From NCBI RefSeq assembly GCF_025398195.1, contig NZ_JAODNV010000004.1:248001-312000 (forward strand): a stretch of DNA of 64,000 nt, read 5' to 3'. The notes below the pieces were generated by a model, which was not told the origin of the DNA, searched no databases, and saw only the letters and a program-made list of their open reading frames with translations. Position numbers and translations under genes: made by a program. Shown piece by piece: positions 386 to 19,677 of the stretch. Each line of letters starts with the position of its first letter. The stretch's first letter is position 1. The stretch comes from Chelativorans petroleitrophicus (lineage in GTDB: Bacteria > Pseudomonadota > Alphaproteobacteria > Rhizobiales > Rhizobiaceae).

Positions 386-2470
386 ATGGCACTCAGCGAG
401 AGCATCGGCATCGAACAGCGCAAGCACAGCCGCGACATCGGCTTTGCCGTCGGCATTGTCATCATCCTGACGGTCCTGTTCCTGCCGATCCCGGCCTTCC
501 TCATCGATGTGGGGCTTGCCTTCTCGATTGCCTTCTCGGTCCTCATCCTGATGGTCGCGCTGTGGATCCAGCGGCCCTTGGACTTCTCCTCCTTTCCAAC
601 GGTCCTGCTCATCGTCACGATGCTGCGGCTGTCGCTCAACATCGCGACAACGCGCATGATTCTCTCGGAAGGGTATGAGGGGGTAAATGCCGCGGGCTAC
701 GTCATCGGCGGCTTCTCCCGATTGGTGATGAGCGGCGATTTCGTGATCGGCCTCATCGTCTTCCTCATCCTGATCGTGGTGAACTTCGTCGTCATCACCA
801 AGGGTGCGACCCGCATCGCGGAGGTCGGCGCGCGCTTCACGCTGGACGCCATTCCCGGCAAGCAGATGTCCATCGACGCCGACCTTTCCGCGGGCATCAT
901 CGACGAGAAGGAGGCCCAGCGCAGGCGGCGGGAGCTCGAAGAGGAGAGCGCCTTCTTCGGCGCCATGGACGGCGCCTCGAAATTCGTACGCGGTGATGCC
1001 ATCGCCGGCCTTATAATCACGGCGATCAACATCATCGGCGGGATCGCCATCGGCTATGCGCGCCACGGCATGAGCCTGGCAGAGGCGTCCGATGTCTTCG
1101 TGAAGCTTTCGGTCGGCGACGGTCTGGTGACGCAGATTCCAGCGCTGATTGTCTCGCTCGCGGCGGGCCTGCTCGTCTCCAAGGGCGGCACGCGCGGGTC
1201 GGCCGATCAGGCCGTCTTCGGCCAGCTGGGCGCCTATCCGCGCGCCCTCTTCGTTGCCGGTATGCTTCTCGGCGTGCTAGGGCTGGTTCCGGGCCTTCCT
1301 GCTCTTCCCTTCCTCGCGCTTGCGGGCACGATGGCAGGTCTCAGCTACATTCTTCCGCGCCAGCGGCGCCAGCAGGAGGAAGCCGCCGCCGAGGCGGAGC
1401 GCCAAAGGCAGCGCGAGGCAGCGGAAGAGGAACAGGAGTCGGTCAAGGCATCGCTGAAGACCGCCGAGATCGAACTGCTTGTGGGTAAGCAGCTCTCCAC
1501 GCGGCTCATCGCGTCGCATCGCGAGCTTGCCTTCCGCATGAACAAGATGCGCAAGAAGTTCGCGGCCCAGTACGGCTTCGTGGTGCCGGAGGTGCGGCTG
1601 GCGGACGATTTCTCGATACCGCCCAAGAGCTATCGCATCCGCATCCACGGCGCGGTCGTGGCCGAATATCAGCTCCGCGTCGGGGAACTGATGGTGCTGC
1701 TCGGAAGCAAGCCGCTGCCGAACCTGCCCGGCGAGGAGGTGAAGGAGCCCGCCTTCGGCATGCGCGCCTATTCCGTCTCCGAAATGTTTGCGGAGGAACT
1801 GAAGAACAGCGGCTACGCCTATGCCGACAACATGGCGGTGCTGCTGACGCACCTTTCCGAAGTCATCCGCAACAACCTGCCGCAGCTTCTGTCCTACAAG
1901 GACATGAAGGCGCTGATTGACCGGCTCGACCCCGAATACCGCAAGCTGGCCGACGAGATATGCTCCGCGCACATCACCTATCCGGGCCTACAGGCCGTGC
2001 TCAAACTTCTTCTGGCCGAGCGCGTGTCGATCCGCAACTTGCACCTGATTCTCGAGGCGATCGCGGAAATCGCGCCGCATATCCGCCGCACTGAGCAGAT
2101 CGTGGAACATGTGCGCATCCGCATGGCGCAGCAGATCTGCGGCGATCTCGCCGAAGGGGCCGTGCTGAAGGTGCTGAGGCTCGGGAGCCGCTGGGATCTG
2201 GCCTTCCACCAGGCCCTGAAGCGCGACGCCAAGGGCGAGGTGCGGGAGTTCGACATCGACCCGCGCCAGCTCGAGGAATTCGGCCAGGAGGCTGCAAAGG
2301 TGATCCGCATGCATCTCGATGCAGGCGAGCGTTTCGTACTGGTGACGGCGCCCGAGGCTCGGCCCTATGTGCGCATGATCATCGAGCGCCTCTTCCCCAA
2401 CCTTCCGGTTCTGAGCCATGTGGAGATCGCCCGGGGGGTGGAGCTCAGCGTGCTCGGATCGATCTCCTGA
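386..2470 (+). CDS. flhA: Flagellar biosynthesis protein FlhA
   Basis: FlhA is the large inner-membrane component of the flagellar type III export gate. It forms the ring that receives chaperone-substrate complexes. The 694-residue length is typical. The N-terminal half (about residues 20-320) holds the multiple membrane segments. Between them is the conserved cytoplasmic loop with [20 protein letters not shown] (about residues 147-166), the hallmark of the FHIPEP family. After a charged linker (about 325-360, rich in Q, E and R) comes the soluble C-terminal docking domain. The start ATG follows a GGGGG-containing ribosome binding site by about 5 bases. FliR follows 62 bp downstream, so both export-gate proteins are co-transcribed. 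Confidence 0.98.
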
Positions 2471-2532
2471 CGGCCATGCCGCCGCACCCGGTCTTCCCAT
2501 GCAGCCGCCTTTGCCGCACGGGCAGCTGAGCC

Positions 2533-3279
2533 ATGCTGGAAATGGCCGTTCTTGCCGCGTTTCTGGCCTTCTGCCGCATCGGTGCCTGCATGATGCTCAT
2601 GCCGGGGTTGGGCAGCGCGCGGGTGCCGATGCAGGTGCGGCTGTTTCTCGCCGTCAGCGTATCGCTGGCCCTGCTCGTGCATCTGTGGGAGGCGATCGCG
2701 CCGCACGTCTCGCGCCCGCCTTCCGAGCTTCTTCTTCTCATCGCCTCGGAACTTGCGCTCGGCGCTCTCATCGGCCTGGTGGTACGCTTTTACGTGCTCG
2801 CGCTGCAATTCATCGGATCGGCCATCACCATGCTGTCCGGCTTCGGCATGGCCGCCGCGGATGTCGCCGTGGAGGAGAACAATCCGCAACCCGCGATGGC
2901 AGCCATCATCTCCCTGGCGGCGCTGATGCTGCTGTTCGCGCTGGATTTCCACCATGCGATCTTCAGGGCGTTGATCGCATCCTACGAGCTCGCACCGGTC
3001 AGCGTGCTGTTCAATCCCCGCTCGGCGTTGATCGACCTGTCGGATACGCTGTCGGAAGCCTTCTTCGTGATGATCAGGCTCGGCAGTCCCTTCGTTGCCT
3101 ATGCTATCCTGGTCAATCTTGCGGTGGGCTTCCTCAACAAGCTCGCACCGCAGATACCTCTCTACTTCATCTCGCTTCCCTTCGTGATCGCGGGAGGCCT
3201 TATCCTCCTCTATTTCGGCATCGGCACGTTCCTCGCACTCTTTGCCGACGGCTTCATCCCCACCACCCTCGGGAGATAA
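2533..3279 (+). CDS. fliR: Flagellar biosynthesis protein FliR
   Basis: FliR is an integral membrane protein of the flagellar export gate and forms the core channel with FliP and FliQ. The 248-residue protein is almost entirely hydrophobic, with about six membrane helices. It shows family features such as ACMMLMPGLGSARVPMQVRL near the N-terminus, QFIGSAITMLSGFGMA in the middle, and the conserved LVNLAVGFLNKLAPQIPLYF stretch near residues 195-214. It lies between flhA and a small coiled-coil gene that starts 3 bp after its stop, as in rhizobial flagellar operons. Of the core, only fliR and flhA are present here; the rest of the regulon must lie upstream of the window. Confidence 0.97.
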   Translation: MLEMAVLAAFLAFCRIGACMMLMPGLGSARVPMQVRLFLAVSVSLALLVHLWEAIAPHVSRPPSELLLLIASELALGALIGLVVRFYVLALQFIGSAITMLSGFGMAAADVAVEENNPQPAMAAIISLAALMLLFALDFHHAIFRALIASYELAPVSVLFNPRSALIDLSDTLSEAFFVMIRLGSPFVAYAILVNLAVGFLNKLAPQIPLYFISLPFVIAGGLILLYFGIGTFLALFADGFIPTTLGR

Positions 3280-3282
3280 GCG

Positions 3283-3678
3283 ATGGGCCGGCCGAAACAT
3301 GAGAGGCTGAAAAGGCTGGTGACATTGCAGCAGCGGGTGAAGGCGCTCCACGATGCGCGACATGCCGCGCATCTCACCGAGGCACGCGTGGCTGAGCAGG
3401 AGGCGGCCGCGCTGATCGAAAGCCTCAACGATCCCAAAGGCGTCGCCGCGCTCTTCCCGGCGCTCGTCCATGCCCGCATTGAAAGCGCGCTCGCGCGGCG
3501 GGACGCAAGCTGGAAGGAAGCCGCCAGGGAGGCCGGTGAGAGCGCTGCCGCCCGCGCGCGCGTCGAGCGGGCCGGGCAGGCCTACAGGCAGGCGCTCGGC
3601 CAGCACGAGCGGGCGCTGGAGGCCAAGACGATTCTCGAACTTCTGGAGCAGCGCCTTTCGCGGAAAGCCGGGGGCTGA
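3283..3678 (+). CDS. Small coiled-coil protein of the flagellar operon (FliJ-like, tentative)
   Basis: This 131-residue protein is nearly all helix, rich in Ala, Arg and Glu, with heptad-like spacing from about residue 8 to 125 and no membrane segment. It starts three bases after fliR stops, so it is almost certainly translated from the same message. Small charged coiled-coil proteins in such operons often serve the export apparatus, as FliJ does with FliI, and the size fits, but the sequence carries no signature I would trust to name it FliJ. The role in flagellar export or chaperoning is inferred from position and predicted fold only. Confidence 0.75.
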   Translation: MGRPKHERLKRLVTLQQRVKALHDARHAAHLTEARVAEQEAAALIESLNDPKGVAALFPALVHARIESALARRDASWKEAAREAGESAAARARVERAGQAYRQALGQHERALEAKTILELLEQRLSRKAGG

Positions 3679-3741
3679 AGATCATCCGGAGCCAAGCAAG
3701 GCGGGACAAGCCTGCCGCAAGCTTCTGCTGCCATAGTCGGC

Positions 3742-4266
3742 ATGCAAACCAGAAAGGAGGCACGCGCCGCCGTGTCGATACTCCCGCCGGGCGACATATT
3801 GCTGGAAGTGACCAGGGCTGCCGACCCAGAGGCGGTTGCTGCGGCCCACGCGCGCCTTAAGGCGCAGGCCGTAGGGCGGTCGGACACCTTCGACGTGCCC
3901 GCCACGCAGGCCAAGACGGCACGGGCCGATACAAAGCCGCCGGAGCATTTTGTCCAGTTCGAGGCCATGGTGCTCCAGACCTTCCTCAAGAGCATGCTGC
4001 CGGAGGAGACGGGGGCCCATTACGGCAAGGGGCTTGCCGGCGAGATGTGGCGCGACCTGCTTGCCGATGCGCTGGGCATGGCCCTGGCGGAGCGCGGCGG
4101 AATTGGCATTGCCGAGCAAGTACTGGGCTCGCGTGGTGCGGAACTGGCCGGCGGGCAGGCCGCCTCCGAGGTGGACATGGCGACGGCGCTCGTGCAGGAG
4201 ATCGAGCGGAAGATGGCGAAGCGCCTCGACGGAGAGGACGATCCCGCCGCCCGCAAGCCCAGCTAG
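3742..4266 (+). CDS. FlgJ-type rod-binding protein without muramidase domain
   Basis: The 174-residue protein contains the rod-binding domain found at the N-terminus of FlgJ. The segment from about residue 72 (FVQFEAMVLQTFLKSMLP, then the GLAGEMWRDLLADALG and GIGIAEQVL stretches) matches the family pattern of short amphipathic helices. In enterics FlgJ caps the growing rod and carries a C-terminal peptidoglycan hydrolase. Here the hydrolase is absent, as in alphaproteobacteria, where a separate transglycosylase usually does that job. The C-terminal 30 residues are charged and probably disordered. The start ATG at 3742 is followed by a basic N-terminus. The gene sits 63 bp after the coiled-coil gene and 6 bp before the FlgN-like gene. 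Confidence 0.85.
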   Translation: MQTRKEARAAVSILPPGDILLEVTRAADPEAVAAAHARLKAQAVGRSDTFDVPATQAKTARADTKPPEHFVQFEAMVLQTFLKSMLPEETGAHYGKGLAGEMWRDLLADALGMALAERGGIGIAEQVLGSRGAELAGGQAASEVDMATALVQEIERKMAKRLDGEDDPAARKPS

Positions 4267-5221: not shown

Positions 5222-6049
5222 CTATTCGTTCGCGCTGATGCGCGGGGAGGCGGTCGGCCAGGCAAGCTCGGTGGTTCGGGCAATCATCGCCTCGACAACG
5301 GCGAACATGGCCGTATTCGCGTCCCATGTCCGGTCGATAGAGACCCGGCACGGAAGCACCACCTTGGCGAAGCGCGAAATGGGCGAGATCCATTCGTCCG
5401 TCACCAGGATCACGAAGGCGCGCCGCTTGCGAAGCAGGCTTGCCGTCTCCAGCATCTCCGAATCGTAGCGGCGCATGTCAAAGAGCACGGCCGTATCGCC
5501 CGCCTTAATATCCAGGATCTGATCGGTTCTGGCCGCCATGCGGCCGTCGAGGCGCCGAACGCCAGGCCGTACCAGGCGCAGATGGGCCTCCATGTACATG
5601 GCAAGCGCGTCGGTAAAGCGCCCGCCCGCCAGATGGCAGGAGCGCTTCGGGTCCGCCAGTCGGCGGCAGGCGGCTTCGAACTCCGCTTCCGGTATGCGCG
5701 CGGCGGTGGCCGCGATGTTGGCGGCAAGCTGCGCGACGAAGCGGTCGAGGAAATTTCCGCCATCCTCGCGCGGCTTGTTGCGGCTGCGCTCAAGGGGAGA
5801 CTTCGTGCGCTCCTTGAGCTCCTCGCGCAGGGCGCGCTGAAACTCTGGATAGGACCCGAAGCCGAGCCGCGCGACGAAGCGCAGAACGGTGGCGGGGCTT
5901 GCGCCTGCCGATTTGGCGAATTCGGCAACGGGAGCGAGGCCGATCATCGGATAATTCGCAAGCAGGCCGCGCGCCGCCCGTCTTTCAGCGGACGTCAGGC
6001 GCTCGATCGTTTCATGGACCCGCTCTTCCACCGTCGCGTCCGCCATCAC
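5222..6049 (-). CDS. RpiR/MurR-family transcriptional regulator
   Basis: RpiR-type regulators bind DNA through an N-terminal helix-turn-helix and sense a ligand, often a phosphosugar, with a C-terminal SIS domain. Here residues 1-80 form the HTH_6 domain, with the typical AEFAKSAGASPATVLRFVARLGF recognition region (about 42-64). Residues 125-260 form the SIS fold (CHLAGGRFTDALAMYMEAHL, GDTAVLFDMRRYDSEM, FVILVTDEWISPISRFA). The length of 275 fits the family. It is divergent from the amidohydrolase gene, and the shared intergenic region carries a 16-bp palindrome 10 bp upstream of this start, so self-repression together with control of the catabolic cluster is likely. Two ATG codons in a row leave the first residue uncertain by one. 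Confidence 0.93.
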   Translation of the reverse strand: MMADATVEERVHETIERLTSAERRAARGLLANYPMIGLAPVAEFAKSAGASPATVLRFVARLGFGSYPEFQRALREELKERTKSPLERSRNKPREDGGNFLDRFVAQLAANIAATAARIPEAEFEAACRRLADPKRSCHLAGGRFTDALAMYMEAHLRLVRPGVRRLDGRMAARTDQILDIKAGDTAVLFDMRRYDSEMLETASLLRKRRAFVILVTDEWISPISRFAKVVLPCRVSIDRTWDANTAMFAVVEAMIARTTELAWPTASPRISANE

Positions 6050-6058
6050 TCCCCCATA

Positions 6059-6074
6059 TGAAACGTTCGTTTCA
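6059..6074. promoter_or_regulatory. Palindromic operator, probably for the RpiR regulator
   Basis: The sequence TGAAACGTTCGTTTCA has perfect 6-bp arms (TGAAAC and GTTTCA) around a 4-bp centre. It lies between the divergent regulator and amidohydrolase genes. It is 10 bp from the regulator start and directly abuts the TTGACA box at 6078. Binding there would block both directions. The assignment to this regulator is inferred from position and symmetry. Confidence 0.6.
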
Positions 6075-6077
6075 GTA

Positions 6078-6106
6078 TTGACAGAAATCCCGCTTCTGGA
6101 ATTACA
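6078..6106 (+). promoter_or_regulatory. Likely promoter of the amidohydrolase-TRAP-ligase cluster
   Basis: A perfect -35 hexamer TTGACA (6078-6083) is followed after 17 bp by ATTACA (6101-6106), a weak -10. Transcription would start near 6113, leaving about 25 bases before the GTG at 6138 with a GAGAGGGAAGG ribosome binding site between. The -35 abuts the palindrome at 6059-6074. Confidence 0.45.
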
Positions 6107-6137
6107 TCACCAGGTGGAGAGAGGGAAGGTGGGATCG

Positions 6138-6929
6138 GTGGACGGTTCTGCGGACAAGGCGGTGGAAGTGGTGAACACCCATGCGGCTTCGCCGTTTCTC
6201 CTCGTCTGCGACCATGCGTCGAACCGCTTTCCGGAGCGTTATGGCAATCTCGGCCTTGGCGAGGCGGAACGCATCAGCCATGCGGCATGGGATCCGGGGG
6301 CGCTCGCCGTCAGCCTGGCATTGAGCGGCCTTCTTGACGCGACGCTCGTCCATTCAACCATTTCCCGTCTCATAATCGACTGCAACCGGGCACTGGACGC
6401 GCCCGACCTGATCTGTACGCAGTCGGAGACGGTCCAAATCCCCGCCAATGCAAATCTGGACGACACGGAGCGCAGCTTCCGCATCGCCGCATATTATCAA
6501 CCGTTTCACGATGCCGTCGCCGCGGTAGTGGGGCGGCGCAAGGCGCAAGGCCGGGAGACGATCCTGGTCTGCCTGCACTCTTTCACGCCGGTCTATTTCG
6601 GGGTCAGCCGCCCATGGCCGATCGGCCTTATCCATGGCCATGACGCGCGCTTCGCGGCGGCGGTGGCGGATGCCCTGAAGGCGCGGATGTCGGACCTCGA
6701 ACTGGGCTGGAACCAGCCATATTCGGCCGCCGACGGTGTCACGCTGACGCTGGAGCGGCACGGAGATGCAAACGGGCTGGCATCAGTCATGATCGAGCTG
6801 CGCAACGATGAGCTCCGGACGCCCGCGGCGGTTTCGGCCTGGGCGGAAAGGCTTGCGTCGGCATTGATCGCCGCACGCGAGAGCGTGGATGCGCGGGAAC
6901 CGGCAGGGCTTGCAACTAGGGAAGGGTAG
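6138..6929 (+). CDS. N-formylglutamate amidohydrolase family protein
   Basis: Members of this zinc amidohydrolase family cleave N-acyl or gamma-linked glutamate compounds; HutG2-type enzymes act on N-formylglutamate. The protein shows the family motifs LVCDHASNRFPERYG near the start, the SRLIIDCNRALD stretch (about residue 75), VCLHSFTPVYFG (about 145) and IELRNDELRTP near the end. An open frame also begins at a TTG at 6078, but that TTG is the -35 box itself. The GTG at 6138, preceded by a purine-rich ribosome binding site, gives a normal 263-residue protein. No other hut genes are here. The neighbours are a TRAP transporter and a glutamine-synthetase-like ligase, so it may remove glutamate from a gamma-glutamylated intermediate. 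That last step is inference. Confidence 0.88.
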   Translation: MDGSADKAVEVVNTHAASPFLLVCDHASNRFPERYGNLGLGEAERISHAAWDPGALAVSLALSGLLDATLVHSTISRLIIDCNRALDAPDLICTQSETVQIPANANLDDTERSFRIAAYYQPFHDAVAAVVGRRKAQGRETILVCLHSFTPVYFGVSRPWPIGLIHGHDARFAAAVADALKARMSDLELGWNQPYSAADGVTLTLERHGDANGLASVMIELRNDELRTPAAVSAWAERLASALIAARESVDAREPAGLATREG

Positions 6930-6930
6930 G

Positions 6931-7443
6931 GTGCCGAAGCCGATCAGACTCTATGTCCATTATGTGGATTTGATGAACCGGCGCATCGGCCGGTTCGCAA
7001 TGCATATCCTTTTCGTATTGATGGCCGTTCTTCTCTATTCGACGGCTTCCCGTGTGTTTCTCGGAATTCCGGTGAACTGGTCGCTGGAGATGAGCCAGTT
7101 CCTCCTGTCTGCCTACTATCTTCTCGGCGGGGCCTATTCGCTGCAGCTCAACGCCCATGTGCGCATGGACCTCTTCTACAGCCGGCTTTCGCCGAAGCAG
7201 AAGGCGGCCACCGACGCGGTCACCATCGTATTCGTGCTCTTCTACCTGGCGGTGCTGTTCTGGGGCGGGCTGTCCAGCACGCAATACGCGATCGAATACA
7301 GCCAGAAGAACTATACCTCCTGGGCGCCGCTTCTGTGGCCCATCAAATCCATCATGACGTTCGGCATCTTCCTGATGCTGCTTCAGGCGATTTCCTGCTT
7401 CTTCAAGGATCTCGCGCTTGCCCGAGGGAAGCCGATCGCATGA
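6931..7443 (+). CDS. TRAP transporter small permease (DctQ family)
   Basis: This is the small membrane subunit of a tripartite ATP-independent periplasmic transporter. It couples to the large permease and a binding protein. I prefer the GTG at 6931, right after the amidohydrolase stop and 4 bases downstream of a GAAGGG ribosome binding site, over the earlier ATG at 6889, which would overlap the previous gene. The 170-residue product has four membrane helices with typical family features: SLEMSQFLLSAYYLLGGAYSL with the conserved acidic residue, and HVRMDLFYSRLSPKQKA in the cytoplasmic loop. The stop overlaps the start of the large permease by 4 bases (ATGA). Confidence 0.93.
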   Translation: MPKPIRLYVHYVDLMNRRIGRFAMHILFVLMAVLLYSTASRVFLGIPVNWSLEMSQFLLSAYYLLGGAYSLQLNAHVRMDLFYSRLSPKQKAATDAVTIVFVLFYLAVLFWGGLSSTQYAIEYSQKNYTSWAPLLWPIKSIMTFGIFLMLLQAISCFFKDLALARGKPIA

Positions 7444-8765
7444 GCTCGGAACTCATCACCCTCTTCATGTTCTCCACGATGATGGTGCTGCTGATCACCG
7501 GTCAGCGCGTCTTCGGTGTGATCGGATTCGTCGGCGCGGCGGCCGCGCTCTGGCTGTGGGGCAAGGGCTCGGCCGAGCTGCCGTTCAACGCCAGTTTTCA
7601 GGTGCTGAACTGGTATCCCCTGATCACGGTGCCGCTCTTCATCTTCATGGGATTCATGTTTTCCGAATCCGGCGTCGCCAACAGCCTCTACCGCATGTTC
7701 CACGTCTGGTTCGGCGGGCTGAGGGGCGGCCTGGCGCTGGGCACGATCGGCCTCATGGTGCTGATCGCCTGCATGAACGGTTTGAGCGTGGCCGGAATGG
7801 CGATCGGCGCCACGGTTGCCCTGCCGGAGCTGCTCAAGCACCGCTATGACAAGGTGATGGTGACCGGCGTGATCCAAGCGGGCAGCTCGCTTGGTATCTT
7901 GGTGCCGCCGAGCGTGGTTCTGGTGCTCTACGCGATGATCGCGCGCCAGCCGGTGCTGCAGCTCTGGCTTGCGGGAGCGATCCCCGGGCTTCTCATGGCA
8001 GCGCTTTTCGCCGCCTACATTTTCATCCGCTGCCGGATCAATCCTGACCTTGCGCCCGCCATGCCCAAGGAGGAGCGCGACGCGATCACGCTCGGCGAGA
8101 AGCTCCGCCTGCTGCGGGCGGGCATCCTGCCGCTTCTGGTCTTCGGCGTCATGATGGGGCTGTTCCTTTCAGGGATCACGAGCCTTGTGGAAAGCGCCGC
8201 CGTCGGTGCCCTCCTGTCGCTGCTTGCTGCCGTCTTCTCCGGCCGCTTCTCGCTCAAGGTCCTTGAGGAAAGCACGCGTAACACGCTGGGCATCAGCTGC
8301 ATGTTTCTTTGGATCATCCTGGCGGCGCTCTGCTTCGGTGCCGTCTATGATGGGCTCGGCGCGGTGCGGGCCATCGAGAACCTGCTTCTCAACCAGCTCG
8401 GGACGGACCGCTGGACGGTGCTGACCCTGATGCTTCTGTCCTTTATCGTCCTGGGCATGTTCCTGGACGATACGGCGATGCTGGTGATCGTGGCGCCGCT
8501 CTACATTCCGTTGGTGATCGCGCTTGACTTCAATCCGATCTGGTTCGGCGTCCTTTATACGATCACCTGCCAGATTGCCTACATCACGCCGCCATTCGGC
8601 TACAATCTCTTCCTGATGCGAGCGATGGCGCCGCCGGAGATCACGCTTGGCGACATCTATCGCTCCATCGTCCCTTTCGTCGGGATGATGGGGCTGATGA
8701 TCGTTATCCTCATGCTTTTTCCCGATCTCGCCCTCTGGCTTCCCGGCTGGTGGACGGCCCGATGA
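7440..8765 (+). CDS. TRAP transporter large permease (DctM family)
   Basis: The large permease carries the substrate path and uses a sodium or proton gradient. The start ATG at 7440 overlaps the DctQ stop; the open frame upstream of it (from 7335) is overlap with dctQ and is not used. The 441-residue protein is hydrophobic throughout, with about 12 helices. It has DctM signatures such as PLFIFMGFMFSESGVANSLY (about residues 62-81), IQAGSSLGILVPPSVVLVLY (about 145-164) and, near the end, the FGVLYTITCQIAYITPPFGYNLF stretch. Substrate class cannot be read from the permease. The surrounding enzymes suggest a nitrogenous compound or a carboxylate derived from one. Confidence 0.95.
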   Translation: MSSELITLFMFSTMMVLLITGQRVFGVIGFVGAAAALWLWGKGSAELPFNASFQVLNWYPLITVPLFIFMGFMFSESGVANSLYRMFHVWFGGLRGGLALGTIGLMVLIACMNGLSVAGMAIGATVALPELLKHRYDKVMVTGVIQAGSSLGILVPPSVVLVLYAMIARQPVLQLWLAGAIPGLLMAALFAAYIFIRCRINPDLAPAMPKEERDAITLGEKLRLLRAGILPLLVFGVMMGLFLSGITSLVESAAVGALLSLLAAVFSGRFSLKVLEESTRNTLGISCMFLWIILAALCFGAVYDGLGAVRAIENLLLNQLGTDRWTVLTLMLLSFIVLGMFLDDTAMLVIVAPLYIPLVIALDFNPIWFGVLYTITCQIAYITPPFGYNLFLMRAMAPPEITLGDIYRSIVPFVGMMGLMIVILMLFPDLALWLPGWWTAR

Positions 8766-8881
8766 AAGGCATGGCCGGCGCGTGAAGGAAGGAGGTGGTC
8801 GCAACGCAAAGAGAAGAAACCGAGCAGGAAGGGGACAGGTCGAGGACGGCCCGTCCCGTGCGCAAGAAAGGGGAACATGAC

Positions 8882-9949
8882 ATGAGCGACAGCAAAATCA
8901 CCAAACGCGACTTTATCCGCAATGCGGGGCTGGCAGCGGCGGGAACCGTTGGCGCGGCCACCCTCAGCACGCCCTATGTCGTCCGCGCCCAGACGCCGAT
9001 CCGCTGGCGCATGCAGACCTACGCCGGACCGGCGCTGGCCGAACACGTCATCAAGCCGGCCATCGACGCCTTCAACAAGGCGGCCAATGGCGAGATGGTC
9101 ATAGAGCTCTATACGTCGGACCAGCTTGTGCCGCAGGGCGAGCTTTTCCGGGCCGTGCAGCAGGGCACGATCGACGCGGCGCAGAGCGACGACGATTCCA
9201 TGGCGTCTCCCGTCGATGTCGCCGTCTTCGGCGCCTATTTCCCCTTTGCTTCCCGCTACAGCCTTGACGTGCCGGCCCTCTGGCACTGGTATGGGCTGAA
9301 GGAAATCTGGGAAGAAGCTTATGGCGAGGTCGAAGGGGTGACCTGGCTTTCAGCCGGCGCCTGGGACCCCTGCAATTTCGCCACCACCAAGCCGATCCGC
9401 AGCCTCGACGATCTGAACGGCCTGCGCGTCTTCACCTTCCCAACGGGCGGCCGCTTCCTGAGCCGCTTCGGCGTGGTGCCCGTGACGCTGCCCTGGGAGG
9501 ACATCGAGGTGGCGATCCAAACAGGCGAAATCGACGGCATCGCCTGGTGCGGCGCGACCGAAACGCACACGGTCGGCTGGGCGGATGTCACGAAATACTA
9601 TCTCACCAACAACATCAGCGGTGCGTGGGCCGGATCCTTCTTCGCCAACACGGAAAGGTGGGAGGCCGTCCCGGACCATCTGAAGACGATCTTCCAGCTC
9701 GCCATGGATTCCTCGCACTACTATCGCCAGCACTGGTACTGGTGGGGCGAGGCGCACTACCGCACGACGGGCGGCAAGCTGGAGCTCACCACGATACCGG
9801 AAAGCGAGTGGAAGAGGGTTGAGGACGAGGCGATGGTCTTCTGGGACGAAATTGCCGCGACCAGCGAGCGGAATGCCCGCGTGGTTCAGATCCTGAAGAA
9901 CTACGCCGAGACGATGCGCAAGGCCGGGGCTCCCTACCGCTACGCCTGA
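8882..9949 (+). CDS. TRAP transporter periplasmic substrate-binding protein (DctP family)
   Basis: The 355-residue protein begins with a Tat-like signal (KITKRDFIRNAGLAAAG followed by an Ala-rich segment and cleavage near VRAQ), so it is probably exported folded. The mature part shows DctP features: QGELFRAVQQGTIDAAQ, the LNGLRVFTFPTGGRFL segment that contains the conserved arginine used to hold a ligand carboxylate, and a helix with PWEDIEVAIQTGEIDGI. The start at 8882 follows an AAAGGGG ribosome binding site; the longer frame from 8795 has a non-protein-like leader. It is placed after the permeases, the reverse of the second TRAP system in this window. A GC-rich hairpin follows the stop. 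Confidence 0.94.
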   Translation: MSDSKITKRDFIRNAGLAAAGTVGAATLSTPYVVRAQTPIRWRMQTYAGPALAEHVIKPAIDAFNKAANGEMVIELYTSDQLVPQGELFRAVQQGTIDAAQSDDDSMASPVDVAVFGAYFPFASRYSLDVPALWHWYGLKEIWEEAYGEVEGVTWLSAGAWDPCNFATTKPIRSLDDLNGLRVFTFPTGGRFLSRFGVVPVTLPWEDIEVAIQTGEIDGIAWCGATETHTVGWADVTKYYLTNNISGAWAGSFFANTERWEAVPDHLKTIFQLAMDSSHYYRQHWYWWGEAHYRTTGGKLELTTIPESEWKRVEDEAMVFWDEIAATSERNARVVQILKNYAETMRKAGAPYRYA

Positions 9950-9957
9950 GGAGACAA

Positions 9958-9984
9958 GCCGGCCCCGTATCGGGCGGGGCCGGC
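9958..9984 (+). terminator. Intercistronic hairpin after the TRAP binding protein gene
   Basis: GCCGGCCCCG (9958-9967) and CGGGGCCGGC (9975-9984) form a perfect 10-bp stem with a 7-base loop, 9 bp after the dctP stop. No T-run follows, so it is more likely an mRNA-stabilising or partial attenuation structure than a full terminator. The next gene of the cluster begins 27 bp later. Confidence 0.7.
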
Positions 9985-10011
9985 CATCAACTTTGCCAAG
10001 GAAAACACTCC

Positions 10012-11373
10012 ATGACCGCCTACACGCTCGACGCGCTGAAGGCCGATGTCTCGGCGGGCAACATCGATACGGTGCTGGTTGCCTTCCCCGATATGCAGGG
10101 ACGCCTGATCGGCAAGAGATTCCAGGCCGAGTTCTTCCTCGACAGCGCATTGGAAGAAACCCACGGTTGCGATTATCTGCTGGCGAACGACATCGATATG
10201 GAGCCAGTGCCGGGCTATGCAGCGGCGAGCTGGGAGAAGGGTTATGGCGATTTCGTCATGAAGCCTGACCTTCCCACCTTGATGAAGGCCGCTTGGCTCG
10301 AGGGCACCGCGCTTGTGCTTTGCGATCTGGTCGATCACCATCACCACGAGCCCGTCGCGCATTCGCCGAGAGCCGTCCTGAAGAGGCAGCTTGCCAGGCT
10401 GGAAAAGCTCGGCCTCACCGCGAATTTCGCCTCCGAGCTCGAATTCTACCTGTTCGACGAGGATTACCGCACGATCCACGACAAGGGATACCGCGACCTC
10501 AAGCCCGCGGGCTACTACATCGAGGATTACCACATCTTCCAAACGACCAAGGAAGAGGCGGTGATGCGGGCGATCCGCCGCCAGCTTCAGGCCTCGGGCA
10601 TTCCCGTGGAGAACTCGAAGGGCGAGTGGGGGCCGGGCCAGGAAGAAATCAATGTGCGCTATGCCGAGGCCCTGACGATGGCCGACCGGCACGTGATCCT
10701 GAAGAATGCCGTCAAGGAAATCGCCCACGCTCAGGGCAAGGCGGTGACCTTCATGGCGAAGTGGGACTATGCGCTCGCCGGCTCATCGAGCCATATCCAC
10801 ATGTCACTTGCCAGACACGGCAAGAACGCCTTCGTGGATGAGAGCGATCCCCTCGGAATGTCCGCCCTCATGAAGCACTTCGTGGCGGGCCTCCTGAAAT
10901 ACGCCGCCGATATCACGGTGTTTCTCGCGCCCTATGTTAATTCCTACAAGCGCTTCCAGGCCGGCACCTTCGCGCCCACCACGATCACCTGGAGCGGCGA
11001 CAACCGCACGGCCGGCTTCCGGCTCTGCGGCGAGAAGACCAATGGCATCCGCATCGAGTGCCGCATAGGCGGGGCGGACCTCAATCCTTACCTTGCCTTT
11101 GCCGGCCTGCTTGCCGCCGGCATCAAGGGCATCGAGGACGAGCTTCCCCTCGACCCTCCGTTCAACGGGGATGCCTATGCCGGAAAGGAGCTGCCGCAGG
11201 TGCCGAAGACCTTGCGCCACGCCATCGCCGCGCTCAGGCAGTCGAAGATGCTGCGTGATGCGCTGGGGGCCGAGGTGGTCGAACATTATGCGCATACAGC
11301 CGATTGGGAGCAGTTCGAGTATGACCGCCGAGTGACCGACTGGGAGCTGAAACGCGGCTTTGAGCGGTACTGA
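10012..11373 (+). CDS. Glutamine synthetase-family ligase (gamma-glutamylpolyamine synthetase-like)
   Basis: Proteins of this branch join glutamate to an amine using ATP; PuuA (putrescine) and IpuC (isopropylamine) are characterised examples. The 453-residue length fits. Visible motifs are the metal-binding SELEFYLFDED (about residue 143), the ENSKGEWGPGQEEINVRYA segment (about 202), SSSHIHMSL (about 261), the NSYKRFQAGTFAPTTITW loop (about 306) with the arginine-containing DNRTAGFR, and ECRIGGADLNPYLAFA. It lacks the PII/adenylylation loop organisation of primary GlnA. Its neighbours (amidohydrolase, aldehyde and alcohol dehydrogenases) suggest that it primes a degradation route by glutamylation. 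Which amine it uses cannot be told from sequence. Confidence 0.88.
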   Translation: MTAYTLDALKADVSAGNIDTVLVAFPDMQGRLIGKRFQAEFFLDSALEETHGCDYLLANDIDMEPVPGYAAASWEKGYGDFVMKPDLPTLMKAAWLEGTALVLCDLVDHHHHEPVAHSPRAVLKRQLARLEKLGLTANFASELEFYLFDEDYRTIHDKGYRDLKPAGYYIEDYHIFQTTKEEAVMRAIRRQLQASGIPVENSKGEWGPGQEEINVRYAEALTMADRHVILKNAVKEIAHAQGKAVTFMAKWDYALAGSSSHIHMSLARHGKNAFVDESDPLGMSALMKHFVAGLLKYAADITVFLAPYVNSYKRFQAGTFAPTTITWSGDNRTAGFRLCGEKTNGIRIECRIGGADLNPYLAFAGLLAAGIKGIEDELPLDPPFNGDAYAGKELPQVPKTLRHAIAALRQSKMLRDALGAEVVEHYAHTADWEQFEYDRRVTDWELKRGFERY

Positions 11374-11410
11374 CGGTGGAGCGTCGCATGCGCATGATGA
11401 AGGTGAAGCC

Positions 11411-12793
11411 ATGACCGAGGCGGTGAAGATCATTTCTCCCATCGACGGCCGCGTCTATGCGGAGCGGCCCGTGGCCTCCGCAGCGGAAATCGAGACCGCG
11501 CTCGACCGCGCGCGGGCCGCGCAGCGCGCCTGGGCCGCGACGAGCCTTGCCGAGCGCACGGCGGCGCTCACGCGCTTCACGGACGCGCTGCTTGCCATGA
11601 ACGACGAGATCGTGCCCGAGCTTGCCTGGCAGATGGGCAGACCCGTGCGCTACGGCGGCGAACAGCGTGGCGTGGAGGAGCGCGCGCGCTACATGATCTC
11701 CATCGCGGAAGAGGCGCTCGCTCCGCTAGAAAAGAAGGACAAGCCCGGCTTCATTCGTTACATCCGCCGCGAGCCGCTCGGCCTCGTGCTGGTGATCGCG
11801 CCGTGGAACTACCCGTATCTGACGGCCATCAACTCCATCGTTCCCGCCCTCGTGGCGGGGAATGCCGTACTGCTCAAGCACGCGAGTCAGACCCTTCTGG
11901 TGGGCGAGCGTTTCCAGAAGGCTGCGGACGCGGCGGGCCTGCCGGAGGGCCTGTTCTGCAACATCGTCATGGACCATGAGAGCACGGAGAAGCTGATCGC
12001 TTCCCGCCGCATCGACCATATCTCCTTCACCGGCTCGGTCGAGGGCGGACGGCGCATCGAGAAGGCCGCCGCGGGCACCTTCGCCACGCTCGGGCTGGAG
12101 CTCGGCGGCAAGGACCCGGCCTATGTGCGCCGCGATACCGATCTCGACTACACGGTCGAAAATCTGGTGGACGGCTCGTTCTTCAATTCGGGCCAGAGCT
12201 GCTGCGGCATCGAACGCATTTATGTGGATGCCCCCATCTACGACGATTTCCTGGAGCGCTTCATCGAAACCGCGAAGGGGTGGACGCTGGGGAACCCGCT
12301 GGACCCTGAAACGGTGGTTGGGCCCATGGCCCGCGCCTCCTTTGCCGATCATGTGCGCCAGCAGATCGCCGAGGCCGTGCGGCAGGGCGCGAAGGCCCAT
12401 CTCGACATGAAGCATCCGGAGGACAGGAAGGGCTCGCCGTATCTCGCGCCGCAGGTGCTTTCGAACGTCAATCACCAGATGTCCGTCATGCGCGAGGAGA
12501 GCTTCGGGCCGGTTGTGGGTATCATGAAGGTCTCCGGCGATGAGGAAGCCGTCACGCTGATGAACGACAGCCCCTATGGCCTCACCGCCTCGATCTGGAC
12601 GAAGGATCTTGAGGCGGCCGCCCGCTTGGGCGACCGGATCGAGACGGGCACCGTGTTTGCCAATCGCTGCGACTATCTGGACCCGGCGCTGGTCTGGACA
12701 GGCGTAAAGGATACCGGCAAAGGCGGTGCGTTGAGCGAGATCGGCTACCACAATCTCACGCAACCGAAATCCTACCATCTGAAAGAAGTCTGA
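11411..12793 (+). CDS. Aldehyde dehydrogenase family protein
   Basis: The 460-residue NAD(P)-dependent aldehyde dehydrogenase shows the family core: the APWNYPYLTAINSIVPAL cofactor region (about residues 129-146), FTGSVEGGRRI, the general base in LELGGKDPAYV (about 225) and the catalytic cysteine in SGQSCCGIERIYV (about 262). The start ATG at 11411 has a GAAGGTGAAG ribosome binding site; an open frame from 11360 merely overlaps the previous gene. It lies 37 bp after the ligase gene and 7 bp before the iron alcohol dehydrogenase, so the two oxidations (alcohol to aldehyde to acid) are encoded side by side. The substrate is likely a glutamylated or amine-derived aldehyde, which is inference from context. 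Confidence 0.93.
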   Translation: MTEAVKIISPIDGRVYAERPVASAAEIETALDRARAAQRAWAATSLAERTAALTRFTDALLAMNDEIVPELAWQMGRPVRYGGEQRGVEERARYMISIAEEALAPLEKKDKPGFIRYIRREPLGLVLVIAPWNYPYLTAINSIVPALVAGNAVLLKHASQTLLVGERFQKAADAAGLPEGLFCNIVMDHESTEKLIASRRIDHISFTGSVEGGRRIEKAAAGTFATLGLELGGKDPAYVRRDTDLDYTVENLVDGSFFNSGQSCCGIERIYVDAPIYDDFLERFIETAKGWTLGNPLDPETVVGPMARASFADHVRQQIAEAVRQGAKAHLDMKHPEDRKGSPYLAPQVLSNVNHQMSVMREESFGPVVGIMKVSGDEEAVTLMNDSPYGLTASIWTKDLEAAARLGDRIETGTVFANRCDYLDPALVWTGVKDTGKGGALSEIGYHNLTQPKSYHLKEV

Positions 12794-12800
12794 TCCCCCG

Positions 12801-13961
12801 ATGACCACGCGCGCCAACTGGAACTATCCCACTGTCGTCCGTTTTGGGGCCGGCCGCATTGCCGAACTGCCCGAAGCCCTGAAGGCGGCAGGCATTTCAC
12901 GGCCACTGCTTGTGACCGACGCCGGTCTTGCGGGTCTGCCGGTCACCCGGCGCGTGCTCGATATCCTGCGCGAGGCGGGCTACGAGGCCGCCCTTTTCTC
13001 GGATGTGAAACCTAACCCGGTCTCGGCCAATGTCGAGGCGGGGATCGCTGTCTTGAGACAGGGCAATCATGACGGCGTGATCGCCTTCGGCGGCGGTTCC
13101 GGGCTCGATACGGCGAAGGTGATCGCCTTCATGGCAGGCCAAACGCGGCCCATGTGGGATTTCGAAGATATCGGCGACTGGTGGACCCGCGCGGACCCGA
13201 GCGGCATTCTGCCGATCGTCGCCGTGCCTACCACGGCAGGCACCGGTTCGGAGGTTGGCCGCGCGGGCGTGATCACCGACGAGCGGACGCACACCAAGAA
13301 GGTGATCTTCCATCCGCTGATGATGCCGAAGGTGGTGATCGCCGACCCGGAACTCACCGTAGGCATGCCGCGCTTCATCACCGTGGGAACGGGCTTCGAC
13401 GCCCTTGCCCACTGTCTGGAGGCTTATTGCGCACCCGGCTATCACCCGATGGCCGACGGCATCGCGGTGGAGGGCATAAGGCTCGCGCTGGAGAACCTGC
13501 CCAAGGTCGCCGTCGAGCCAGATGACATCGAGGCGCGCGGCCACATGATGAGCGCGGCGGCGATGGGCGCCACCGCATTCCAGAAGGGCCTTGGCGGCAT
13601 CCACGCCCTGTCGCACCCGATTGGCGCGCTCTATGACACGCACCATGGCATGACCAATGCCGTGTTCATGCCCTATGTGCTGGTGGCGAACCGCCCGGCG
13701 ATCGAAGATCGGATCAAGCGGCTCGCCGCCTATCTCGGCCTTGAGCCGACCTTCGAGGCGTTCCTGAAAGCCATCCTCGACCTGCGCCGGGAGCTCGACG
13801 TGCCGCACAGCCTCAAGGACATGAACATCGATGGGTCTGAGCACGAGCGCATAGCCGAGATGGCCATTGCCGACCCGACTGCCGGCGGCAATCCGGTGCG
13901 GCTTACCAAAGAGCTGGCCTTGCGGATATTCGACCGGGCCCTGGAAGGGCAGGTGGGCTGA
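12801..13961 (+). CDS. Iron-containing alcohol dehydrogenase
   Basis: The 386-residue protein belongs to the group III (iron-dependent) alcohol dehydrogenases. The nucleotide-binding GGGSGLDTAKVIAF segment is near residue 97, and PTTAGTGSEVGRAGVI is near 142. The metal-binding region has FDALAHCLEAYC near 200 and the histidine cluster HALSHPIGALYDTHHG near 267, all expected ligands being present. It ends the + strand catabolic cluster; the next feature is a decayed gene on the other strand. In the cluster it would oxidise an alcohol group, for example the hydroxyl of a glutamylated amino alcohol, and pass the aldehyde to the dehydrogenase encoded just upstream. Confidence 0.94.
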   Translation: MTTRANWNYPTVVRFGAGRIAELPEALKAAGISRPLLVTDAGLAGLPVTRRVLDILREAGYEAALFSDVKPNPVSANVEAGIAVLRQGNHDGVIAFGGGSGLDTAKVIAFMAGQTRPMWDFEDIGDWWTRADPSGILPIVAVPTTAGTGSEVGRAGVITDERTHTKKVIFHPLMMPKVVIADPELTVGMPRFITVGTGFDALAHCLEAYCAPGYHPMADGIAVEGIRLALENLPKVAVEPDDIEARGHMMSAAAMGATAFQKGLGGIHALSHPIGALYDTHHGMTNAVFMPYVLVANRPAIEDRIKRLAAYLGLEPTFEAFLKAILDLRRELDVPHSLKDMNIDGSEHERIAEMAIADPTAGGNPVRLTKELALRIFDRALEGQVG

Positions 13962-15379: not shown

Positions 15380-16312
15380 TTGGAGCCCGCCAGGACCCAT
15401 CCATTGCCGGAAGGGCCGGAAGGCAGAGAGCCTCTGCCCTCGCAAAGCCGCGCGGTGCTGGTGGGCCTGCTCGGGCGCGGAATCCAGTTGTCGCGCACGC
15501 CGGCCATGCACGAAGCAGAAGCGCGGGCGCGCGGCATATCCTACGTCTACAGGCTCATCGATGCCGACCTTATGGGCGAGCCGGCCCCCTCGCTCGCTGA
15601 CCTTCTCCGGTTCGCGGAGTATCTCGCCTTCACCGGCTTCAACGTCACCTTCCCATTCAAGCAGGAAATCCTGCCGCTTCTCGATGAGCTTTCGCCCGCT
15701 GCTCGCGAGTTGGGTTCGGTCAACACCGTGGTCTTCCGGGATGGTCGCCGCTTCGGCCACAACACGGATGTATGGGGTTTTGGGGAAAGCTTCCGTCGCG
15801 AGATGGGCGAAGCGGCGAGGGATGCCATATTGCTGCTTGGCGCCGGCGGCGCGGGCGCGGCTGTCGGCCATGCCCTGCTTGAGAGCGGCGTCCACCGGCT
15901 GCGGATTGCTGACGTCGAGCCGGCAAAGGCCGCTCAGCTCGCTACGCGTCTTTCGCGTCGGTTCGGACCCGGACGGGCTGAAGCGGTTGCCGACGTCGCC
16001 ACCGCCGCATCGCGGAGCGACGGCATCGTCAATGCCTCGCCCGTCGGCATGGCGAAGCTACCGGGCATGCCGCTGCCTGCCGCCTGTATCGAGCCGCGCC
16101 ACTGGGTGGCCGATATCGTCTACTTTCCGCTGGAAACGGAACTGCTCCGCCACGCGCGGCGCCTCGGCTGCCGGACCATGTCGGGAGAAGGCATGGCGGT
16201 GTTCCAGGCGGTACGCGCCTTCGAGCTTTTCACCGGCGTCACGCCGGACGTCGATCGGATGAAGGCAGCTTTCGCCGCCTTCGACCGTGCGCCCACCAGA
16301 CAAACGGGCTAA
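15380..16312 (+). CDS. Shikimate/quinate dehydrogenase (AroE family)
   Basis: AroE-family enzymes interconvert shikimate and 3-dehydroshikimate, and some also oxidise quinate. The protein (310 residues) shows the substrate-binding LSRTPAMHEAEA near residue 37, the catalytic lysine in FNVTFPFKQEILP (about 90), the catalytic aspartate in HNTDVWGFGESF (about 129), the nucleotide loop LLLGAGGAGAAVGHALLESG (about 151) and the C-terminal SGEGMAVFQAVRAFELFTG. The start is TTG at 15380 behind a GGGAGGAAG ribosome binding site; no ATG fits. Being first in a catabolic operon with a TRAP transporter, a dehydroquinase and a dehydroshikimate dehydratase, it probably works in the oxidative, degradative direction rather than in aromatic amino acid synthesis. 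Confidence 0.9.
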   Translation: MEPARTHPLPEGPEGREPLPSQSRAVLVGLLGRGIQLSRTPAMHEAEARARGISYVYRLIDADLMGEPAPSLADLLRFAEYLAFTGFNVTFPFKQEILPLLDELSPAARELGSVNTVVFRDGRRFGHNTDVWGFGESFRREMGEAARDAILLLGAGGAGAAVGHALLESGVHRLRIADVEPAKAAQLATRLSRRFGPGRAEAVADVATAASRSDGIVNASPVGMAKLPGMPLPAACIEPRHWVADIVYFPLETELLRHARRLGCRTMSGEGMAVFQAVRAFELFTGVTPDVDRMKAAFAAFDRAPTRQTG

Positions 16313-16337
16313 CCAGGAAGCAACAGGGAGGATCCTC

Positions 16338-17324
16338 ATGACACACCATGCTACCCGCCGCCAGTTCCTTGCCGGAACCGGCATTCTCGCAGCCACCGCG
16401 GCCTTTCCGGCCCTCGCGCAGGACAAGCCGAAACTGCGCTTCTCGGCCGTGTTCTCCGAGCAGGACATCCGCGCGGAAATGATGAAAATGTTCGCCGACG
16501 CGATCGCCGACGATTTTGCCTTCGAAGGCTATTACGGCGGCAACCTGTTCAAGCAGGGCACCGAGCTCGTCGCGATTCAGCGCGGCAACCTCGAGATGGG
16601 CAACATCGCCCCGCAGGACATTTCCAAGCAGATCCCCGCCTGGTCGATCGTGACGGCCGGATACCTCTTCCGCGACGCCGCCCATGTGAAGACCTTCTTC
16701 AACAGCGACCCCGGCAAGGAGCTGAAGAAGATGGCCGAGGACCAGCTCGGCGTCGTCATCCTCGGCCCGACCTATTTCGGCGTGCGCCAGGTCGGCCTCA
16801 AGCCGGAGAAGGAGATCAAGACACCGGCCGACATGGCGGGCATCAAGCTCAGGATGCCCGGCGGCGATGCCTGGCAATTCCTTGGGGAGGCGCTCGGCGC
16901 CAACCCGACGCCGATGGCCTATGCCGAGGTCTATACGGGTCTCCAGACGGGTGCCATCGACGGGCAGGACAATCCGCTTCCCAATGTGGAGAACATGAAG
17001 TTCTACGAGGTGATGAGCCAGATCGTGCTGACATCCCACCTCGTCGGCTTCGACCTGCTCACCGTCTCCAAGAAGGTGTGGGACGAAATGGGCGCGGAGA
17101 AGCAGGCGAAGTTCCAGGCAGCAGCCGACGCGGCAATCGACTTCTCGACCGACAAACACCTTGCTCGCGAGCAGGAACTCATCGAGATCTTCAAGGAAAA
17201 GGGGCTGAAGATCTACGAGCCCGATGTCGAGGCCTTCCGCAAGCACGTGCAGGAAAAGTACCTGGCTTCGGACCTCGCCAAGGATTGGCCCGAGGGCATG
17301 GTCGACAAGATCAACGCCCTTTGA
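16338..17324 (+). CDS. TRAP transporter substrate-binding protein (DctP family), quinate/shikimate cluster
   Basis: The start ATG at 16338 follows an AGGGAGG ribosome binding site. The N-terminus is a clear twin-arginine signal (TRRQFLAGTGILAATAAFPALAQ region), so export is by Tat. The mature protein has the DctP pattern: LFKQGTELVAIQRGNLEMG, the ligand-carboxylate arginine in MAGIKLRMPGG, and the helix AEVYTGLQTGAIDGQDNPL. The length of 328 fits. With the permeases directly downstream it forms a complete TRAP system. Quinate and shikimate are monocarboxylates, so they fit the conserved arginine mode of binding, and the operon context supports one of them as the substrate. Confidence 0.95.
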   Translation: MTHHATRRQFLAGTGILAATAAFPALAQDKPKLRFSAVFSEQDIRAEMMKMFADAIADDFAFEGYYGGNLFKQGTELVAIQRGNLEMGNIAPQDISKQIPAWSIVTAGYLFRDAAHVKTFFNSDPGKELKKMAEDQLGVVILGPTYFGVRQVGLKPEKEIKTPADMAGIKLRMPGGDAWQFLGEALGANPTPMAYAEVYTGLQTGAIDGQDNPLPNVENMKFYEVMSQIVLTSHLVGFDLLTVSKKVWDEMGAEKQAKFQAAADAAIDFSTDKHLAREQELIEIFKEKGLKIYEPDVEAFRKHVQEKYLASDLAKDWPEGMVDKINAL

Positions 17325-17336
17325 TGCGAGCGAACC

Positions 17337-17368
17337 GCAGCAGCCGCTCTATGGCGGGCGGCTGCTGC
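17337..17368 (+). terminator. Intercistronic hairpin after the second TRAP binding protein gene
   Basis: GCAGCAGCCGC (17337-17347) and GCGGCTGCTGC (17358-17368) form a perfect 11-bp stem with a 10-base loop, 12 bp after the stop. No T-run follows. As with the hairpin at 9958, it probably gives the binding-protein message extra stability or reduces transcription into the permease genes. Confidence 0.7.
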
Positions 17369-17399
17369 TTCCGATCGGGAGGATGAGAGGAGGCATGGC

Positions 17400-17918
17400 A
17401 TGACGCCAGGCATTCAGCGATGGGGCTTGTGGCTCTACCGGCGCGCGGAAAACGTGCTCGCGGCCATGCTGGCGGTAATGTTCTTCTCCTTCCTCCTGCA
17501 GATATTCTTCCGCTACGTGCTCAACTGGCCGTCCGGATGGGCGCATGAACTGAGCTCCATCCTGTGGATCTGGCTCGTGCTCTGGGGTGCCGCCTTCGTG
17601 CTCACCGAGCAGGAGGAGATGCGCTTTGACCTGATCTACGCCTCCGTCGGCGAGAGGACGCGCAGCGCCATGTTCCTGATCTTCGCGGCAGCGCTCATCT
17701 TCCTCTATGGCTTCTCCTTCCCGGCGGTGTTCGACTACGTGACCTTCATGAAGGTGGAGAAGAGCGCCTACCTCAAAATCCGCTTCGATTGGCTGTTTTC
17801 GATCTATCTCGTCTTCGTCGTCGCCATCATCGTGCGCTACCTCTACCTCTCCTGGAAAGTGCTCAGAGGCCGCGCGCCCGACGAATATGATCCATCCAAG
17901 GCGGGGTCAGGCGTATGA
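17400..17918 (+). CDS. TRAP transporter small permease (DctQ family)
   Basis: The 172-residue membrane protein has four hydrophobic helices and the DctQ feature SGWAHELSSILWIWLVLWGA (about residues 41-60), with a conserved acidic residue at the membrane edge, followed by EMRFDLIYASVGERTRSAM. A strong GAGAGGAGG ribosome binding site lies ahead of the ATG. Its stop overlaps the next ATG by 4 bases. It is the second DctQ protein in the window and only distantly similar to the one at 6931, so the two TRAP systems are not a recent duplication. Confidence 0.94.
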   Translation: MTPGIQRWGLWLYRRAENVLAAMLAVMFFSFLLQIFFRYVLNWPSGWAHELSSILWIWLVLWGAAFVLTEQEEMRFDLIYASVGERTRSAMFLIFAAALIFLYGFSFPAVFDYVTFMKVEKSAYLKIRFDWLFSIYLVFVVAIIVRYLYLSWKVLRGRAPDEYDPSKAGSGV

Positions 17919-19216: not shown

Positions 19217-19230
19217 GCAGGAGGACAAGC

Positions 19231-19677
19231 ATGGCCGCCAAGCCGATTTTCATCCTTAACGGACCTAACCTCAACCGCCTCGGCACGCGGGAGCCGGAAA
19301 TCTACGGCACGGTCACGCTGGCCGAGATCGAGGCCATGTGCCGCGAGGCGGCGGGTGAGACGCCCGTCCGCTTCCACCAAACCAATGCCGAGCACCAGCT
19401 CGTCGACTGGGTGCATGAGGCGATTGACGAGGGCTCGGGCATCCTCATCAATCCGGCGGGCCTCTCCTTCCGCTCCATTCCTCTGCTCGATGCGCTCAAG
19501 ATGTTTCCCGGGCCAATCATCGAGTTCCACATCTCGAATATTCACCGGCGCGAGGAGATCTACCACAAGTCGCTGGTCTCGACCGTGGCGACGGCCGTGC
19601 TGGCGGGTCTCGGCCCGTGTGGCTATCGCCTGGCGGTGGAGGCGCTGATCGGGATGATCGGCGAGGCGCCAAAATGA
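19231..19677 (+). CDS. aroQ: Type II 3-dehydroquinate dehydratase
   Basis: The enzyme dehydrates 3-dehydroquinate to 3-dehydroshikimate and forms a dodecamer. The 148-residue length is typical. Signatures are FILNGPNLNRLGTREPEIYG at residues 7-26, which includes the catalytic tyrosine of the mobile lid, the substrate loop FHQTNAEHQLVDWVHEA, the INPAGLSFRSIPLLDAL stretch in place of the usual NPGAYTHTS (a variation seen in catabolic paralogues), and EFHISNIHRREEIYHKS with the catalytic histidine. It begins 14 bp after the TRAP permease behind a CAGGAGGAC ribosome binding site and overlaps the next gene by 4 bases. The context and the altered substrate loop point to quinate breakdown rather than chorismate synthesis. 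Confidence 0.95.
   Translation: MAAKPIFILNGPNLNRLGTREPEIYGTVTLAEIEAMCREAAGETPVRFHQTNAEHQLVDWVHEAIDEGSGILINPAGLSFRSIPLLDALKMFPGPIIEFHISNIHRREEIYHKSLVSTVATAVLAGLGPCGYRLAVEALIGMIGEAPK

Follow-up and report, generated by a model that had tools for sequence, protein, structure and literature searches.

Four described systems come closest to the locus studied here. In Phaeobacter sp. MED193 the operon MED193_10021-10056 encodes an RpiR regulator, GGAH, EtoV, EtoW, EtoX, ETAGA, GAADDH and GETADH; the levels of five of these eight proteins increase on phosphoethanolamine, and the dissociation constant (Kd) of EtoX for ethanolamine is 7.9 uM, as reported in PMC10132767. For the pathway of Chromohalobacter salexigens, Table 2 of a review gives the families PF00120, PF00465, PF00171 and PF05013 (PMC9397018), and Csal_0678 of this organism is reported to bind ethanolamine without the carboxylate-holding Arg of other tripartite ATP-independent periplasmic (TRAP) binding proteins (PMC4646407). 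The GlnA4 (SCO1613) route of Streptomyces coelicolor follows the same reaction scheme, and a formylglutamate-amidohydrolase-family enzyme, SCO1615, is proposed for the final step; it belongs to the Actinobacteria, and the portion of PMC6529630 available to us mentions no TRAP transporter. The same source states that glutamylation avoids free acetaldehyde. In the Puu pathway of Escherichia coli gamma-glutamylation likewise precedes oxidation and hydrolysis comes last, but the substrate is putrescine, the oxidase PuuB acts instead of an alcohol dehydrogenase, and the hydrolase PuuD is not a PF05013 enzyme. Here we analyse an eight-gene cluster at positions 5222-13961 of a 64,000 nt stretch of the Chelativorans petroleitrophicus genome (contig NZ_JAODNV010000004.1, positions 248,001 to 312,000; the whole stretch is referred to as the window). 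Based on gene content and order, similarity to published proteins, co-occurrence in other genomes and conservation of a candidate operator, all of which we demonstrate for this locus, the cluster is assigned with a probability of about 0.9 to ethanolamine gamma-glutamylation, whereby the substrate and every reaction step are predicted from published homologues.

Gene content and proposed pathway

A first-pass annotation of this DNA had listed an RpiR regulator, a TRAP transporter and four enzymes. All eight genes were indeed found, each protein scoring above the curated Pfam cut-off (including PF00120, PF00465, PF00171 and PF05013, the four enzyme families of the pathway), and the coordinates were right except for start codons (Table 1). 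The order RpiR / amidohydrolase-DctQ-DctM-DctP-ligase-aldehyde dehydrogenase-alcohol dehydrogenase equals that of the MED193 operon, in which all eight genes occur and no difference in gene content is apparent from the printed locus tags, on which this comparison is based. The same eight genes are annotated in the same order and on the same strands on plasmids of Ruegeria sp. B32 (locus L146 of our comparison) and Paracoccus denitrificans PD1222 (L147). Since this eight-gene order recurs in Ruegeria, in Paracoccus and in a sample of the class, and the complete gene set is also present at several close ligase loci (see below), the arrangement is not due to chance.

The C. salexigens proteins Csal_0678 and Csal_0679 are the best structural matches for the binding protein (65-66% identity) and the ligase (60% identity), and the same four enzyme families are involved. 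The source of the C. salexigens ethanolamine pathway is reportedly Vetting et al. 2015. Judging from their consecutive locus tags, the two C. salexigens genes appear to be adjacent.

By analogy to these systems, the TRAP system would bring ethanolamine into the cell, where the glutamine-synthetase-like ligase would use ATP to join it to glutamate, giving gamma-glutamylethanolamide. The hydroxyl would next be oxidised to a carboxylate in two steps, first by the iron-containing alcohol dehydrogenase and subsequently by the aldehyde dehydrogenase, and the PF05013 amidohydrolase would hydrolyse the product, gamma-glutamylglycine, to glycine while glutamate is recycled. Transcription of the operon is probably controlled by the divergently encoded RpiR protein, through a TGAAA-N6-TTTCA site beside the promoter. 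This scheme agrees with the first-pass proposal that an imported amino alcohol is glutamylated, its hydroxyl oxidised twice and the amide hydrolysed, which is the published ethanolamine pathway. The view that the cluster is a distinct variant because a PF05013 enzyme takes the role of PuuD has to be given up: the literature already contains such an enzyme, as a proposal for C. salexigens and S. coelicolor and also for Phaeobacter. The pathway is already published and the present cluster is an ordinary copy of it.

Ethanolamine is a product of membrane lipids, and the route would allow its use without a microcompartment. For the Chelativorans genome, in which the search for EutB gave no match, it predicts that ethanolamine can serve as a source of nitrogen. 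The public names "glutamine synthetase family protein" and "N-formylglutamate amidohydrolase" are likely wrong or vague labels for enzymes of this pathway.

Binding protein, ligase and amidohydrolase

Among solved chains the binding protein matched 4uab/4xf5 with an E value of 1.2e-153, while the next best match reached only 6e-20. Its structural model (mean predicted local distance difference test score, pLDDT, 74.4) aligned with 4xf5 over 313 residues (Z 34.4, root mean square deviation (rmsd) 2.6, 66% identity) and with 4uab over 311 residues (Z 34.1, rmsd 2.5, 65% identity). Phe213 of the open reading frame (ORF), which is Phe184 counted from the likely start, aligns with the Arg of 4yzz that was taken as the conserved carboxylate-binding Arg. 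Both in overall similarity and in the missing Arg the protein is thus of the Csal_0678/EtoX type, and because of this binding protein the most likely substrate of the predicted pathway is ethanolamine.

The best structural match of the ligase model (pLDDT 79.7) was 5dm3, which is Csal_0679 (Z 46.4, rmsd 2.3, 370 aligned residues, 60% identity). The ligase scored 254 bits against the GlnA equivalog (cut-off 429.15) and 214.5 bits against the equivalog of gamma-glutamylputrescine synthetase (GGputSyn, cut-off 650), and is 31% identical to PuuA in alignment. In comparison to E. coli GlnA, Glu327 is replaced by Phe320 and Asn264 by Ala256, positions at which PuuA has Tyr and Ala, while eleven active-site residues of GlnA are kept (Glu129, Glu131, Glu212, Glu220, His269, His271, Arg321, Arg339, Arg344, Glu357, Arg359). 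Glu327 is a catalytic residue of GlnA. At the position of Asp50 of the ammonium site, Asp or Glu was found among the three family members compared. The solved protein nearest in sequence to the ligase is PDB 11zs (E 3.2e-201), titled glutamine synthetase from Brucella melitensis; it is probably a relative of the ethanolamine glutamylase and not a housekeeping glutamine synthetase.

Membership of the amidohydrolase in the FGase superfamily is clear (PF05013, 140.9 bits, cut-off 28.9), while its score against the HutG equivalog was 33.4 bits and thus far below the cut-off of 278.75. Its nearest solved relative is Atu2144 (2odf, E 3.8e-59). In an alignment with 8 relatives 35 columns were invariant, including H46, H68, H167 and E240. 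The genome encodes a second PF05013-type protein (L063:7903-8700), which has 36% identity to that of the operon and reached 24.7 bits against HutG (cut-off 278.75).

Co-occurrence in other genomes and alternative readings

In order to follow the gene set, we used the best 80 of at least 588 confirmed profile matches of the ligase in named genomes, which are its closest relatives and no fair sample. The eight closest ligase relatives among the matches listed come from six Devosia, one Hyphomicrobiales and one Alphaproteobacteria assembly, so that the genome resembles Hyphomicrobiales. Neighbours were counted within about 9 kb at E<=1e-8, with identity floors of 27% for RpiR, 30% for FGase and PuuD, 35% for DctQ and 45-50% for the others; several of the contigs end early. 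Alcohol dehydrogenase was found at 75 of the 80 loci, aldehyde dehydrogenase at 70, the amidohydrolase at 59, an RpiR relative at 51, the TRAP genes at 14 and all eight genes at 10. At seventeen or so loci, many of them from Pseudomonas, the ligase is accompanied by one dehydrogenase or by both, and the amidohydrolase is absent from the vicinity (both dehydrogenases at 14 loci, only the alcohol dehydrogenase at 2, both plus TRAP genes at 1); the hydrolase is either encoded elsewhere or different there. At L073 and other Pseudomonas loci an amino-acid-type permease is encoded close to the ligase and the two dehydrogenases, and there is no PF05013 enzyme nearby.

Of 190 genomes sampled from the class, the binding protein was present in 25 (E<=1e-60) and the ligase in 22 (E<=1e-100). 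Besides the window there are 24 TRAP loci in this sample, six with the ligase (at least 50% identity) and six with the amidohydrolase alongside; all eight genes are present in three (L028, L038, L047), and one of the remaining loci, L036, is interrupted by a contig end. An amidohydrolase relative (E<=1e-30) occurs in 18 of the 22 ligase genomes versus 76 of the 168 others (Fisher p=0.0013), a count that includes paralogues and is uncontrolled for these and for genome size. The co-occurrence of ligase and amidohydrolase, named as a check by the first-pass annotation, therefore holds for the closest ligase loci and at the level of genomes, though in the class sample the two genes adjoin at only 5 of 22 ligase loci.

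Related operons among the best 80 ligase loci have single permeases instead of the TRAP system, located between or beside amidohydrolase and ligase. The permease of locus L096 is matched at 13 loci, at 55-100% identity in 12, all of which are without this TRAP system, and weakly (35%) in L101. This permease, the only one of its kind covered by the family scan, is nearest to the ethanolamine permease family TIGR00908, in favour of ethanolamine as the substrate. EutB (PF06751, E<=0.001) was not found in the Chelativorans genome (completeness 99.97), which favours the glutamylation route over the Eut pathway; as a control, the same search of 14 control genomes gave a match in E. coli. EutB was present in 0 of 13 binding-protein genomes with a close ligase (at least 52% identity) versus 3 of 12 without it (Fisher p=0.096). 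Without reaching significance, this pattern is suggestive of a TRAP protein that would supply one of two routes, glutamylation or EutBC.

Several observations speak against the assignment to ethanolamine gamma-glutamylation. In the class sample an amidohydrolase lies near the ligase at only 5 of 22 loci (the window, L028, L038, L047, L050), and at L029, L035 and L039 the genes for RpiR, the amidohydrolase and the TRAP system lie together in genomes in which no close ligase was found (best match 33-35% identity). The 358.5 bits of the L096 permease against TIGR00908 are below the cut-off of 381.75. A different permease is found at 39 of the best 80 loci, and that of L073 is above no equivalog cut-off. 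Moreover, the C. salexigens pathway is called an in silico prediction in PMC6529630, while PMC10132767 calls it demonstrated.

The same chemistry could serve another amino alcohol as main substrate, e.g., 2-amino-1-propanol (alaninol), which would be converted to alanine and glutamate. The IpuC analogy drawn in the first-pass annotation points in this direction, as does the existence of a second Csal_0678 structure, 4xf5, which is reportedly the alaninol complex; that other amino alcohols would fit as well is a further point against ethanolamine. Ethanolamine, however, is an abundant natural compound. The published homologue binds it at micromolar Kd, and the operon of this homologue responds to phosphoethanolamine (PMC10132767), which makes alaninol an improbable main substrate. 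A glutamylation route for polyamines or simple amines of the Puu/Ipu type would be compatible with the ligase as a member of the wide PF00120 family, which includes PuuA. The low score against GGputSyn and the limited identity to PuuA argue against it, as does PuuD, which was found at 0 of the best 80 ligase loci; in addition, an alcohol dehydrogenase implies a hydroxyl, and the TRAP binding protein belongs with those for ethanolamine. We therefore consider this route very improbable. That a true GlnA and a true HutG, serving nitrogen assimilation and histidine degradation, lie together by chance is what the automatic public names of the two proteins would imply, but both are far below the respective equivalog cut-offs and their co-occurrence at the best 80 ligase loci is conserved, so that hardly any credence is left for this explanation. 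The polyamine (Puu) route, true GlnA with HutG, and a chance neighbourhood were rejected on the basis of scores and co-occurrence.

Candidate operator, start codons and neighbouring genes

Between the divergent regulator gene and the operon, the palindrome TGAAACGTTCGTTTCA directly precedes a TTGACA element. The window contains a single exact match to this pattern versus 0.03 expected, and the 3.96 Mb genome has it at 4 places, while the reversed control gave 0. Homologous intergenic regions were taken from those of the best 80 loci in which the RpiR and FGase genes are divergent and within 400 bp of each other. In 34 of these 50 regions a site matches 9 or all 10 of the arm bases, versus 0.9% of shuffles; the shuffles preserve pairs of bases within blocks, and since many loci are closely related this rate overstates independence. 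Four of the regions (L066, L068, L069, L070) had been inspected before the motif was chosen. TTGAC was present no more than 18 bases past the best site in 35 of the 50 regions (counted by eye), while the promoter scan lists no promoter at 6078. Two counts weigh against an operator: 16 of the 50 regions score below 9, and a score of 9 is reached at just four (L066, L068, L079, L127) of the ten loci that carry the complete gene set. TGAAA-N6-TTTCA is probably the RpiR operator in those lineages that have the site, which is not universal. We give about even odds to the wider idea that RpiR is a dedicated regulator of the ethanolamine pathway, which would act at TGAA(A/G)-N6-TTTCA by a TTGACA promoter and in many Hyphomicrobiales operons mark the pathway whatever the transporter (TRAP, ethanolamine-permease-like or amino-acid-permease-like). 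A limited literature search on ethanolamine, RpiR and TRAP revealed no published account of this operator.

The five ORF starts given in Table 1 are mechanical only. Comparison with homologues indicates GTG for the amidohydrolase and DctQ, and ATG for DctM, DctP and the aldehyde dehydrogenase, as the likely start codons at the first positions listed. For the amidohydrolase, a purine-rich stretch upstream of 6138 together with the homologues favours GTG, and the TTG start at 6078 is unlikely because it falls inside the TTGACA element.

Table 1. Features of the cluster in window coordinates; MED193 or C. salexigens counterparts are given in brackets.
Feature	Position	Strand	Remarks
RpiR-family regulator (MED193_10021)	5222-6049	-	Pfam HTH_6 34.0 bits, SIS 52.7 bits
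Candidate RpiR operator TGAAACGTTCGTTTCA	6059-6074	no strand	7-bp arms, 2-bp spacer
TTGACA, candidate -35 element	6078-6083	+	3 bp past the palindrome
PF05013 amidohydrolase, predicted gamma-glutamylglycine hydrolase (GGAH)	6138-6929	+	FGase 140.9 bits; ORF from 6078
TRAP small permease DctQ (EtoV)	6931-7443	+	PF04290 80.7 bits; ORF from 6889
TRAP large permease DctM (EtoW)	7440-8765	+	PF06808 222.7 bits; ORF from 7335
TRAP binding protein DctP (EtoX / Csal_0678)	8882-9949	+	4uab/4xf5 E 1.2e-153; ORF from 8795
Glutamine-synthetase-like ligase, predicted ethanolamine gamma-glutamylase (ETAGA / Csal_0679)	10012-11373	+	PF00120 345.2 bits
Aldehyde dehydrogenase (GAADDH)	11411-12793	+	PF00171 411.9 bits; ORF from 11360
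Iron-containing alcohol dehydrogenase (GETADH)	12801-13961	+	PF00465 174.4 bits, PF25137 143.6 bits

Directly upstream of the cluster, at window positions 386-4266, flagellar genes (FHIPEP, Bac_export_1, rod-binding) are located. A second TRAP set (DctP, DctQ, DctM) lies at 16287-21575 and is followed by a xylose-isomerase-like barrel fused to an HPPD-like domain. This is the make-up of 3-dehydroshikimate dehydratases of the QuiC type, and this TRAP set and the fusion protein perhaps serve the use of shikimate or quinate.

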